Source: Acidobacteriota bacterium | Lineage (GTDB): Bacteria > Acidobacteriota > Terriglobia > Terriglobales > SCQP01 | DNA: 58,673 bases | NCBI GenBank assembly: GCA_021789895.1 | Contig: JAJYIU010000025.1 | Span: 1 to 58,673, forward strand | Direction of reading: 5' to 3' | Part shown: positions 37,905-43,353 of the stretch, in pieces | Layout of the letters: each line of letters starts with the position of its first letter | Numbering within the stretch: position 1 is the first letter of the stretch | Program-made: the position numbers and the translations under genes | The notes under the pieces: model-generated | The model's database searches: none | Seen by the model: only the letters and a program-made list of their open reading frames with translations | Told to the model about the DNA's origin: nothing

Positions 37905-37980
37905 TGGTGGCCAGGGACGGAATCGAACCGCCGACACGCGGATTTTCAGTCCGCTGCTCTACCGACTGAGCTACCTGGCC
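37905..37980 (-). tRNA. tRNA-Phe (anticodon GAA), integration target
   Basis: The cloverleaf is complete on the minus strand: acceptor GGCCAGG pairs with CCTGGCC, the D-stem is GCTC/GAGC, the anticodon arm is GCGGA-CTGAAAA-TCCGC (anticodon GAA), the T-arm is GGCGG-TTCGATT-CCGTC, discriminator A, and CCA is encoded at 37905-37907. The 5' half plus four upstream bases is duplicated at 43311-43353 as the right end of the integrated element. Its 5' end is only 14 bases from the integrase stop codon, so it has no room for its own promoter outside the integrase gene. Confidence 0.98.
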
Positions 37981-37984
37981 ATAC
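37942..37984. repeat. Left attachment site repeat (within tRNA-Phe)
   Basis: These 43 bases, identical to 43311-43353, cover the tRNA-Phe anticodon arm, D-arm, 5' acceptor strand and four bases upstream of the tRNA. Flanking bases differ on both sides, which defines the boundaries of the crossover region. The core lies in the 5' rather than the 3' half of the tRNA. Confidence 0.93.
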
Positions 37985-37994
37985 TGTCTGCAAA

Positions 37995-39161
37995 CTACTG
38001 AATCCTAACGTCTTTAATGGAATCGCCCGAACCTTTGCTAGCTGTCGGAAAATCGTCGGTGACACTTCTGGTGCCACTTTGTACCCCGGCGAAAGCGGCC
38101 AGCCGCTCCACCGCTTCGAGTTGATGCTGGGGCGCGAGATGGGCATAGCGGCAGGTCATGGCCAGGGTGCGATGTCCCATCAATTCTTGCACAGTCCGCA
38201 GGTCTACGCCAGCCATCACCAGCCGCGAAGCGAAAGTATGGCGGAGACAATGCCAGGTATATTCGCCCAGGCCGGCCAGCGCCGCCGCCCGCTCGAACCA
38301 ATGCCGGGCTTTCTGCGCCGCCTGATCTTTCGTCCGTATCGTATGGCGGATGACCGGGCCGGTGCCATCCGACTGCGGCCTCAGGGCCATCAGTGCGGCC
38401 ATTGTGGCCTGATTCAAAGGGATGTAGCGCGGATGCCGGTTTTTCGTCTTGTAGATGGCGATCTGCCGCCGTTCAAAATCAACCTGTTCCCAGGTAAGCC
38501 GGTACTGCTCGCTGGCGCGCATGCCGGTATTCAGCGCCAGGTCAAATTCCGGCTCATGCGTCGGCCACTGTTCGCGGATGACTGCCCGCAGCCGCGCTTC
38601 CTGCTCGGGCGTGAACCACAGCAGGCGTCCGTTATCTTCGCGGCGCTGCCGCACCAGCCGGGCAGGGTTGACGGAAACAAGGCCATTGGAGACGCCCAGG
38701 CGATAGGCCAGGCTAAGGAATGCCTTGCCGCGATTCACGGTTCCAGGCTGCCATTCCCGCTCCGCCGCCAGCTTGGACAGTCCATGCTCGATCTGCTGCG
38801 GAGTCAGGCTGGCGGCATCGGCCGTGCCGAAGGCTGCCAGCAGCGCCGGATAGCGGGAATCAGTAGCCCAGGTGCCCGTTTTAGCAGAAATTCGCTTGGT
38901 GCTGTAATGCACGCGGATGTGCGCCGCCGCCAAGTCCAGCAATTCACGGACAGGCACGGGTTTGTGGCGCAGCGTTTCCGGCAGTTTCGCCCGCTGCCGC
39001 CGCTCCATGCGCCGCTTATCGAGCAGCGCCAGCGCCATGCCGCGTGTGCCGGCTTTCTCGCGATGCCGGCGGCCGGCCAAATCCCTATAGCTGATCCACC
39101 AAATATCGCTGCCTTTCGGCCTCTCGAAGATACCGCGAACTTTGGAAACCTGGCGCCTCAT
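37995..39161 (-). CDS. int: Tyrosine recombinase (phage-type integrase)
   Basis: A 388-residue site-specific recombinase that would integrate and excise the surrounding element at tRNA-Phe. The N-terminal arm-binding domain (to about residue 70) contains WWISYRDLAGRRHREKAG. A core-binding SAM-like domain covers about residues 75-175. The catalytic domain has Arg in LNTGMRASEQYRLTWEQVD, Lys in YKTKNRHPRYIPL, the HxxR box HCLRHTFASRL, and His and Tyr in GHRTLAMTCRYAHL, so all active-site residues are present. The stop is 14 bases from tRNA-Phe. The start overlaps the stop of the small upstream gene (ATGA). The 3' end of the gene carries short repeats shared with the other end of the element. 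Confidence 0.96.
   Translation of the reverse strand: MRRQVSKVRGIFERPKGSDIWWISYRDLAGRRHREKAGTRGMALALLDKRRMERRQRAKLPETLRHKPVPVRELLDLAAAHIRVHYSTKRISAKTGTWATDSRYPALLAAFGTADAASLTPQQIEHGLSKLAAEREWQPGTVNRGKAFLSLAYRLGVSNGLVSVNPARLVRQRREDNGRLLWFTPEQEARLRAVIREQWPTHEPEFDLALNTGMRASEQYRLTWEQVDFERRQIAIYKTKNRHPRYIPLNQATMAALMALRPQSDGTGPVIRHTIRTKDQAAQKARHWFERAAALAGLGEYTWHCLRHTFASRLVMAGVDLRTVQELMGHRTLAMTCRYAHLAPQHQLEAVERLAAFAGVQSGTRSVTDDFPTASKGSGDSIKDVRIQ
38040..38085. repeat. Candidate left arm-type repeats
   Basis: Inside the 3' end of the integrase gene lie the 12-base tandem GGTGACACTTCT/GGTGCCACTTTG (within 38056-38085) and AGCTGTCGGAA (38040-38050). The 30 bases from 38056 to 38085 are identical to 43158-43187, and AGCTGTCG recurs at 43213. 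Tandem short motifs inside both ends of the element are what arm-type recombinase or excisionase sites look like. Binding is inference. Confidence 0.55.
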
Positions 39162-39337
39162 TGCCTACCGCCTTTCATGACCGGCCTAGCCATCTTCGCC
39201 TTACGCGGCCGGCCGCCTTTTTTGCCGTTTTCGCGGGCAATTTCCCGAATACGTTCCAGCCCGTACCTTTCCAGCCGCACGCGGTATCCCTTGCGGGCCA
39301 TCGTGGCAGCGGCTTCGCTGATGGTCTTTTTGTCCAT
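39158..39337 (-). CDS. Small basic protein upstream of the integrase
   Basis: A 59-residue protein starting MDKKTISEAAATMARKGYRV, with a probable helix (LERYGLERIREIARENGKK) and a very basic tail KKGGRPRKAK that resembles an AT-hook. DNA binding is plausible, perhaps as a recombination or transcription accessory factor, but no family is recognised. Its stop overlaps the integrase start, so the two are coupled. The ATG at 39337 is preferred over upstream in-frame starts because it gives the compact protein; the region upstream also holds the divergent start of the gene at 39386. Confidence 0.6.
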   Translation of the reverse strand: MDKKTISEAAATMARKGYRVRLERYGLERIREIARENGKKGGRPRKAKMARPVMKGGRQ

Positions 39338-39385
39338 GATCTTATTCCTATACGTTTTGGTTTGCAATGTCAAGGGGAAAATGCG

Positions 39386-39634
39386 ATGGAGATATTGATC
39401 GAGTCAAATGACTGGCGAGTAACGCTGACCACGCTCTCGCCCATGGCGGGCGCTGGCGTGCCGGCGCTGCGGGTTGCGGACGCCGCCGGCGTTCGCGACT
39501 ACCGGGCCAACGACCGCCTTGCCGGCACGGGCATCCTGGCGGCCGAGTTGGTGCGCGCCTGGATGCTCTGCCCCGGCCGCACGCCCTGGGAGCGGGCGCA
39601 GGCCCAGCGGTTCCTGGGCGATGCCGCCGCGTGA
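39386..39634 (+). CDS. Small hypothetical protein of the element
   Basis: An 82-residue protein starting MEILIESNDWRVTLTTLSPM, with aggggaaa a few bases before the ATG. The segment ILAAELVRAWMLCPGRTPWE is helical. I do not recognise a family. It is divergent from the integrase operon with about 50 bases between starts, so that short gap probably holds both promoters and could be the element's control region. GC content is like the chromosome. Confidence 0.55.
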   Translation: MEILIESNDWRVTLTTLSPMAGAGVPALRVADAAGVRDYRANDRLAGTGILAAELVRAWMLCPGRTPWERAQAQRFLGDAAA

Positions 39635-39728
39635 TCCCCGCGCGTTTTTGAACGCACCCCCCTATACCCCCGATTGCACCCGGCGGTCGCAGGTGCAAAT
39701 TACTCTCAGATTAGGCCGGCCTGATTTG

Positions 39729-42591: not shown

Positions 42592-42722
42592 TCCCACCGG
42601 CGCGCGTCGCTGGCGGAAGCCGAAAAGGCATTCTTACACGCGGTAGTTGGCGGAACGAAAGACAAAGCATGAACGCCAAGCGCAAGGGCATGCGCAACGA
42701 GCATCGCAGCATCCGGTCATAG
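42588..42722 (+). pseudogene. Remnant of a small phage-type nuclease gene
   Basis: A 44-codon frame coupled to the preceding stop (ATGA). Its last 17 codons read MNAKRKGMRNEHRSIRS, which closely resembles the N-terminus of short phage/plasmid Holliday-junction-resolvase-like PD-(D/E)XK proteins, followed directly by TAG. The bases after the stop still read weakly like the next family residues (PGAGVCRK in the same frame), so a truncated remnant is the likely explanation. The catalytic part is gone. Recognition rests on the short N-terminal pattern only. Confidence 0.4.
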
Positions 42723-42748
42723 CCTGGAGCCGGTGTCTGTAGAAAGCC

Positions 42749-42988
42749 ATGAAACGCCGCTCGCCCAAGCTTGAAGGCGCCTGCAATTTCCTGCGCCGCT
42801 CGCTAGCCAATCCGATGTCCGCAAATATGATCTTTTGGAGCGGCGGCGAATGCGGCCACAGCCAGCGCACCCTGATTCGCGCCGCCCGCAGCCTGGGCGT
42901 CCGCTCCCGCCGGCGCGGCGGCCGGCAGTTCAACGCGCACTGGGAATGGCAGCTCCCGCCTGAAGCAAGCCGGAACGGCACCGAGTGA
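42749..42988 (+). CDS. Small winged-helix-like protein of the element
   Basis: A 79-residue basic protein. The pattern CGHSQRTLIRAARSLGVRSR followed by FNAHWEWQLPPE resembles the HTH found at the C-terminus of RepA/VirE-type replication proteins (a helix, then a wing ending W-x-L-P). It may be a detached module of that kind or a stand-alone DNA-binding protein. The start at 42749 has aaagcc before it, a weak ribosome site. The chain ends at 42988; the bases to 43157 contain nothing I recognise. Confidence 0.5.
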   Translation: MKRRSPKLEGACNFLRRSLANPMSANMIFWSGGECGHSQRTLIRAARSLGVRSRRRGGRQFNAHWEWQLPPEASRNGTE

Positions 42989-43157
42989 GCCGCCATCCTG
43001 CACACTCTCCACGCGCCCGCCCGCGCGCGAGAAAAACGCCCCGTAATGCCGCCTGGCTGCCCCGTGGTGAGGCGATCAAGCCGCCGGACGGCCGGAAGCA
43101 CCCCGGAATCGAAATAGGGCCGTTCTTTGCGATACAGAGTACTTTGCCATACTGAAT

Positions 43158-43245
43158 TCGGTGACACTTCTGGTGCCACTTTGTACCTGTAACTAGGGCG
43201 GAGCCTGTCGTAAGCTGTCGCAAGGGAAGTTTCAATTTTCCCTTG
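43158..43245. repeat. Candidate right arm-type repeats and hairpin
   Basis: 43158-43187 repeats the 30 bases at 38056-38085. It is followed by a tandem 10-mer CTGTCGTAAG/CTGTCGCAAG (43205-43224), half of which recurs at the left end, and an 8-bp inverted repeat CAAGGGAA (43221-43228) and TTCCCTTG (43238-43245). This cluster lies in the non-coding right end of the element, about 65 bases from the right att repeat. Together with the left cluster it looks like recombinase arm sites. Confidence 0.55.
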
Positions 43246-43310
43246 ATATTCCTGCATTTTGTCGTATTCTGGCGGGGTGAGGCGGAATAAGTCAGATAGG
43301 CCGTTTATCT

Positions 43311-43353
43311 ATTTTCAGTCCGCTGCTCTACCGACTGAGCTACCTGGCCATAC
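43311..43353. repeat. Right attachment site repeat
   Basis: Identical over 43 bases to 37942-37984. It contains the tRNA-Phe 5' half without the 3' half, so no tRNA is made here. The chromosome resumes after 43353 with what was the native upstream region of tRNA-Phe on the minus strand, probably including its original promoter. Confidence 0.93.

Follow-up and report, generated by a model that had tools for sequence, protein, structure and literature searches.

An element within the tRNA-Phe gene

The stretch of DNA analysed here (the window) comprises 58,673 nucleotides, positions 1 to 58,673 of contig JAJYIU010000025.1 from an Acidobacteriota bacterium of the order Terriglobales (assembly GCA_021789895.1), and in it we found the insertion of a compact, apparently intact mobile element into the 5' half of the genome's only tRNA-Phe gene. 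This gene (anticodon GAA; 37905..37980, minus strand; ARAGORN and Rfam, 73.6 bits) is a rebuilt one: bases 40–76 are chromosomal, and bases 1–39 come from the element. A perfect 43-bp direct repeat bounds the insertion; one copy (37942..37984, minus strand) forms the attachment (att) core at the tRNA, at the end proximal to the integrase gene (int), and the other (43311..43353, minus strand) forms the far end and represents the displaced 5' half of tRNA-Phe. The start-to-start distance of 5,369 bp is the length of the element. In tRNA numbering, the core begins 4 bp upstream of base 1, at position -3 when base 0 is counted, and ends at base 39; it thus spans the 5' end of the tRNA, the D-arm, and the 5' strand and loop of the anticodon arm. 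A first-pass annotation, made from the letters of the window alone, had described perfect 43-bp repeats around ~5.4 kb and had assigned the repeated core to the anticodon arm, D-arm and 5' end; both descriptions were confirmed.

With the two flanks joined in a script and the family searched, we determined that a congener (G001) carries an empty site, at which the phosphoketolase gene found past the distal repeat in the window directly follows tRNA-Phe in the same orientation. Because of this empty site, and because the same base 39/40 boundary recurs in relatives located in other tRNAs (see below), a chance repeat is ruled out; the proposed compact integrative element in the 5' half of tRNA-Phe is thereby upheld, and nothing was seen of the alternative that the interval is ancestral sequence. 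The locus also displays the features by which Islander defines an island: (i) an intact tRNA gene with a same-orientation 5' fragment on its upstream side; (ii) a tyrosine integrase inside, with a length (5.37 kb) within 2–200 kb; and (iii) absence of the island from a related genome. The genome yielded 41 tRNA genes, only one of them for tRNA-Phe.

Two gene groups lie between the core copies: a minus-strand group consisting of a 59-aa gene and int, and a plus-strand group encoding a membrane protein, a helix-turn-helix (HTH) protein, a CHC2 protein, a RepA-like ATPase and small open reading frames (ORFs). The tyrosine integrase (388 aa; 37995..39161, minus strand; PF00589, 111 bits) is intact, being encoded by one unbroken ORF located outside the core; its catalytic residues are invariant in the family alignment, it is co-oriented with the tRNA, and its stop codon lies ~15 bp before tRNA base 1. 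It overlaps by an ATGA sequence (39158–39161) with the 59-aa gene (39158..39337, minus strand), which has no family match and is a candidate excision cofactor. Homologues of this small gene precede int in the relatives labelled L021 and L023–L027, and similar small ORFs are present in L022, L028 and L065.

On the opposite strand, three genes overlap end to start, encoding (i) an AlpA/excisionase-type HTH protein (40597..40806, plus strand; PF12728, 43 bits; TIGR01764, 38.9 bits, above cut-off), a candidate directionality factor with homologues in many relatives; (ii) a CHC2 zinc-finger protein resembling the primase N-terminal domain (40803..41129, plus strand), which falls below the Pfam cut-off (17.7 bits) but matches the primase family phrog_6088 with E=1.7e-12 and has a 50% identical counterpart in L024; and (iii) a RepA-like AAA_25 ATPase with a C-terminal HTH (41126..42118, plus strand; PF13481, 92 bits). 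Further upstream, a 249-aa membrane protein (39761..40510, plus strand) with no family match is encoded by an AT-rich gene (39% GC; element, 58%; flanks, 63%); no homologue was found in 119 other genomes of the order, and we regard it as orphan cargo. The first-pass annotation had recognised all of these larger genes and had stated that structural and conjugation genes are absent, in agreement with our domain and PHROG scans of the element's ORFs, which found none. It had overlooked the 59-aa gene, the 30-bp repeat described next, and three small plus-strand ORFs of 82 aa (39386..39634; no family match), 131 aa (42196..42591; C-terminal half conserved in L024, with 63% identity over 65 aa) and 79 aa (42749..42988; taken from the ORF list). 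A defence role of the cargo was considered and rejected, as there was no convincing PADLOC match.

Inside both element ends lies a perfect 30-bp repeat, composed of a tandem 12-bp unit containing GGCACC. One copy (38056..38085, minus strand) falls within the coding sequence for the C-terminal extension of the integrase, where it encodes residues such as QSGTRSGTG, and the other (43158..43187, minus strand) is non-coding and located at the far end. The motif GGCACCA is found at -95/-94 from tRNA base 1 in the window element, L022, L024 and L028, and at +172/+173 from the distal core start in the window element, L022 (iMet) and L024 (Leu-TAA). The candidate arms thus lie ~130–136 bp to each side of the anticodon loop, and their spacing is constant to 1 bp across elements in three different tRNAs. 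L028 (Leu-TAG) and a Granulicella remnant (L105) retain this layout; in both, the two arms match each other though they differ from those of the other elements (CCGGCACC, CCGACACC). Since the arms match within an element yet change between elements, as expected of integrase arm sites, the 30-bp repeat is very probably an arm-site pair. The Granulicella remnant (positions 9567–10620 of L105, metagenome-assembled genome (MAG) contig JANYLK010000180.1) is a 1.0-kb derivative in which both att cores and both arm pairs persist but int is reduced to its C-terminal half; a related integrase might be able to mobilise it in trans.

Integrase relatives at the 5' ends of other tRNA genes

All family integrases at ~49% identity or more (L021–L030) lie just upstream of a tRNA 5' end and are co-oriented with it, the tRNAs being Phe, iMet, Met, Lys, Leu-TAA, Leu-TAG and Ser. 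Three relatives have both ends on one contig, namely L022 in iMet (9,431 bp), L024 in Leu-TAA (6,496 bp) and L028 in Leu-TAG (8,748 bp), and in these the identity block stops at base 39 or 40. For the other members of this set, whose far end lies off the contig or was not found, a 5'-half site is deduced from position. No second att site was found for L029 and L034 in ~40 kb and ~10 kb, respectively, of further upstream sequence, and these two may be partly decayed.

In an integrase tree of 115 rows, built by a quick method and with SH-aLRT support only, 34 rows have a tRNA immediately beyond the 3' end of int and in the same orientation. A 60-row branch (support 99), almost entirely from Acidobacteriota, includes 27 members with this 5' arrangement, spread over several of its branches, along with one subclade (support 95) that shows other arrangements; in the more distant integrases, int mostly faces the tRNA 3' end, and there are a few separate 5' cases. 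The clustering of tree rows by arrangement was greater than in all shuffles. We infer that integration into the near-palindromic anticodon stem-loop is possible in both orientations and that the one restoring the 5' half became fixed in this lineage.

Within the same genome, six of the 41 tRNA genes have co-oriented integrase sequence just upstream. At Phe this is the intact integrase described above; at Leu-CAA, Lys-CTT, iMet and Thr-CGT it is a remnant; and at elongator Met it is an apparently intact integrase of another subfamily. The Leu-CAA and Lys-CTT stubs look orthologous to those in the congener. Taken together, the sequences point to relatives of the element having entered many different tRNA genes across Acidobacteriota, where they appear as intact members and decayed stubs, and the element itself, as judged from its sequence, is real, intact-looking and one of a clade. 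The family-wide use of 5' halves, the arm sites and the replacement of the tRNA promoter discussed below had all gone unseen in the first-pass annotation.

Three observations extend this survey. The tRNA-Phe loci of G000, G002, G009, G005 and G013 hold an intact 5'-type integrase in three cases and an integrase stub in two, which suggests that the site has been invaded repeatedly. At elongator tRNA-Met, the co-oriented upstream integrase (L374; G000:C41, about 21000–21900) has a long open frame and is 27% identical, and more than one integrase lineage may therefore use tRNA 5' halves. Outside Acidobacteriota, a Planctomycetota MAG (L106; JAHFOU010000004.1, 1991–8903) contains a 6,874-bp 5'-half element in tRNA-Leu(CAA), which likewise has an identity block stopping at base 39 or 40, carries a DnaB-N/AAA_25 protein, frame-broken near a run of N, and is without the GGCACCA arm motif.

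Islands inserted in the 5' half of a tRNA gene have been recorded before, though seldom: a 5' tDNA fragment marks 159 of the 3,919 islands in Islander, or 4% (PMC4383910), and 9 of 88 tRNA islands in S. meliloti are of the 5'-fragment type (PMC11476347). Such integration is a marginal exception in bacteria because the insertion removes the tRNA promoter. The element resembles the Islander 5'-fragment islands in that an intact tRNA and a displaced 5' fragment bound an integrase-bearing island with a crossover in the anticodon loop, but differs in that here a whole integrase lineage uses the 5' arrangement, in many isotypes and with int always read into the tRNA. The dedicated integrase clade and the arm site embedded in coding sequence are new here, although, our comparison having covered open-licence literature, an earlier description of the clade is possible.

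Transcription of the rebuilt tRNA-Phe

The native promoter of tRNA-Phe now lies beyond the far end of the element, where an extended -10 box, TGCTAGGCT (43379..43387, minus strand), resembles TGCTAGTCT before tRNA-Phe at the empty site (L284 in G001), as aligned by eye, and fits the host tRNA -10 motif TGCTAAAAT, learnt from 31 native tRNA upstream regions. Since this promoter is now 5.4 kb away, the promoter of the rebuilt tRNA must come from inside the element. A putative operon promoter (39345..39373, minus strand), read from the sequence by eye, consists of TTGACA (39368–39373), a 17-bp spacer and TAGGAA (39345–39350), and is situated 7 bp before the 59-aa gene. In eight of eight relatives, a TTGACA-like box and a -10-like box, 17–18 bp apart, precede the small gene by 6–7 bp, not all of them individually significant. 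No terminator-like site is listed between int and the tRNA. By its position, the 59-aa gene is the counterpart of iolg in the phage-inducible chromosomal minimalist islands (PICMIs) considered below, and we infer that tRNA-Phe is driven by the promoter of this iolg-int operon.

With archaeal pTN3-type integrases, attB is likewise the 5' half of a tRNA, and the integrase promoter drives expression of the tRNA once rebuilt (PMC8371274, PMC5495485), pTN3 itself being the described case of this (PMC8371274). However, pTN3 int is split by integration (suicidal), whereas here int remains whole and outside the core, and host domain, protein family and cargo also differ. ICEKp1, which when integrated has int and its target tRNA on a single transcript (PMC13023037), is the mirror image: there int lies at the tRNA 3' end and is driven by the host tRNA promoter, whereas here the element would drive the tRNA.

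The same element could instead supply the tRNA with a promoter inside the 3' end of int, independent of int transcription, and the stubs found elsewhere would then be such promoters. Profile searches of the 14 family genomes turned up many int stubs that consist of the C-terminal part alone and directly precede a tRNA 5' end; N-terminal stubs were not found in isolation. These C-terminal stubs have no operon promoter and sit upstream of intact tRNAs. Furthermore, orthologous stubs of two species show strong conservation of the 35 bp immediately preceding tRNA-Leu(CAA), while neighbouring sequence has been deleted, and some tails contain good -10 boxes (e.g., TGTTATAAT in L102 and TGTTATACA in L024). 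However, the best -10 match in the tail of the window element is no better than in shuffles (p=0.67), and just 15% of tails reach p<0.1; a promoter within the 75 bp preceding the tRNA was rejected as the general rule, since the TGCTAAAAT motif does not stand out in int tails. The C-terminal stubs are likewise weakened as proof that a promoter has been under selection, because 3'-type integrases also leave C-terminal stubs at tRNAs; stub retention thus needs no promoter, and nearness to an essential gene may suffice to explain which part survives. We therefore consider a tail promoter rather unlikely, although it is the strongest competitor of transcription from the iolg-int operon promoter.

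Working model and relation to known elements

We consider it reasonably probable that this is a mobile, functional 5.37-kb element of the satellite type, with attP/arm-site integration, an iolg-int-tRNA operon, AlpA-triggered excision and a helper phage. The integrase would recombine attP with the anticodon stem-loop of tRNA-Phe, using the arm sites on each side of the core. In the integrated state, the tRNA would be read as the last gene of the iolg-int operon, from the promoter before the small gene, yielding a single iolg-int-tRNA transcript to be processed at the tRNA 5' end; this arrangement would entail continuous transcription of int. The AlpA/Xis-type protein from the opposite-strand operon (HTH-CHC2-RepA) would trigger excision, restoring the native tRNA promoter; the same operon would also replicate the excised circle, and transfer would probably depend on a helper phage.

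Among the closest characterised systems are the PICMI minimal satellites of Vibrionaceae, which similarly comprise ~6 kb with int, a small ATGA-overlapping gene (iolg), an AlpA-type HTH (PF12728), a primase/replication gene and no capsid genes (PMC10803314). A small gene overlapping int by ATGA is common in PICMIs, and PICMI115 requires it for excision; constitutive expression has been proposed for int and iolg, with excision triggered by a phage-switched AlpA (PMC10803314). This constitutive logic would fit the element, because an essential tRNA needs a constitutive operon. Two sister elements, L024 and L028, share with PICMIs a DUF3987 primase. The window element itself most likely represents a PICMI-like minimal phage satellite rather than a PICMI by definition, since its site (tRNA-Phe, not beside fis), host (Acidobacteriota, not Vibrionaceae) and primase differ. 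The first-pass statement that the element matches no named family thus holds in so far as it is not a PICMI by definition, but 5'-fragment islands as such are on record (PMC4383910) and its gene set has a PICMI-like precedent (PMC10803314).

An integrase, an AlpA-type regulator and a primase-rep module are class traits of phage-inducible chromosomal islands (PICIs) and capsid-forming PICIs. The element shares all three, and its sister L022 has a lone terminase small subunit (PHROG), but the window element is without terminase, capsid or redirecting genes. On the genes present, it is not a PICI, an integrative and conjugative element or an integrative and mobilizable element (IME).

Several observations weigh against the working model as a whole. 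The element itself has CHC2 and AAA_25 proteins where a PICMI has a DUF3987/DUF5906 primase, and our scans of its ORFs found no terminase, capsid or packaging genes. Its operon promoter is individually weak (p=0.09), and the scorer picked an overlapping site. No close relatives were found in named phage or plasmid records, where the best full-length integrase matches are ~33% identical. Lastly, the genome is a MAG of 95.5% completeness, which leaves some room for a second tRNA-Phe gene.

The missing packaging gene would also suit a mobilizable plasmid-like element (IME) with a conjugative instead of a phage helper, particularly as RepA-like ATPases and small size occur in plasmids too; we judge this improbable, given that no relaxase or mobilisation domain was found among the ORFs scanned and that L022 carries the terminase small subunit. 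A decayed prophage, once a larger tRNA-Phe phage that lost its structural genes, is very improbable and already largely refuted: although a viral contig (L171) that encodes a capsid protein, a protease and a portal protein also carries a 44% identical integrase, the element has two perfect att cores and two perfect arm pairs, its int and HTH-CHC2-RepA genes are undamaged, and independent, fully delimited relatives in other tRNAs are equally small (6.5, 8.7 and 9.4 kb), so that the idea of a piece sampled from a full prophage found no counterpart.

Beyond this locus, we tentatively propose, at somewhat less than even confidence, that the satellite lineage survives by making essential single-copy tRNAs the last cistron of its own integrase operon, that its decayed stubs become permanent tRNA upstream regions, and that the arm sites are embedded in the integrase extension to suit this layout. 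If so, a host that silenced or lost the operon promoter would forfeit the tRNA with it. With a clade for which the 5' halves of many isotypes are the regular target, one can test directly how mobile DNA might assume control over the transcription of essential host genes, whether such takeover stabilises the element, and whether tRNA regulation in Acidobacteriota was reassembled out of integrase remnants. The clade also provides an att module whose core and arm sites are clear, and it may represent a satellite family in a phylum for which few elements have been characterised.

Viral contigs that encode capsid, portal or terminase proteins were found to carry relatives of the integrase and of Rep; one Rep relative (L252), for instance, lies on a short contig together with genes for a capsid protein, a protease, a portal protein and both terminase subunits (TerS and TerL). 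A rep-orf8 module common to the element and the capsid-carrying viral contigs was rejected, since orf8 is not homologous to the genes that follow rep in L251–L253 and only Rep is shared. Rep relatives also occur in two further genomes of the order, where no matching element boundaries were found around them.

Two further remnants in the host genome deserve mention. The Thr-CGT remnant (L042; G000:C24, about 9560–9900) keeps both an N-terminal and a C-terminal piece of int, and just upstream of it lies the apparent end of an antitoxin-type HTH gene, as seen by eye. At the 3' end of tRNA-His (L043; G000:C76, 5413–10000), a 55-bp repeat and other repeats recur 4,198 bp apart, with integrase C-terminal remnants per copy, and these are apparently tandem elements of the 3' type.

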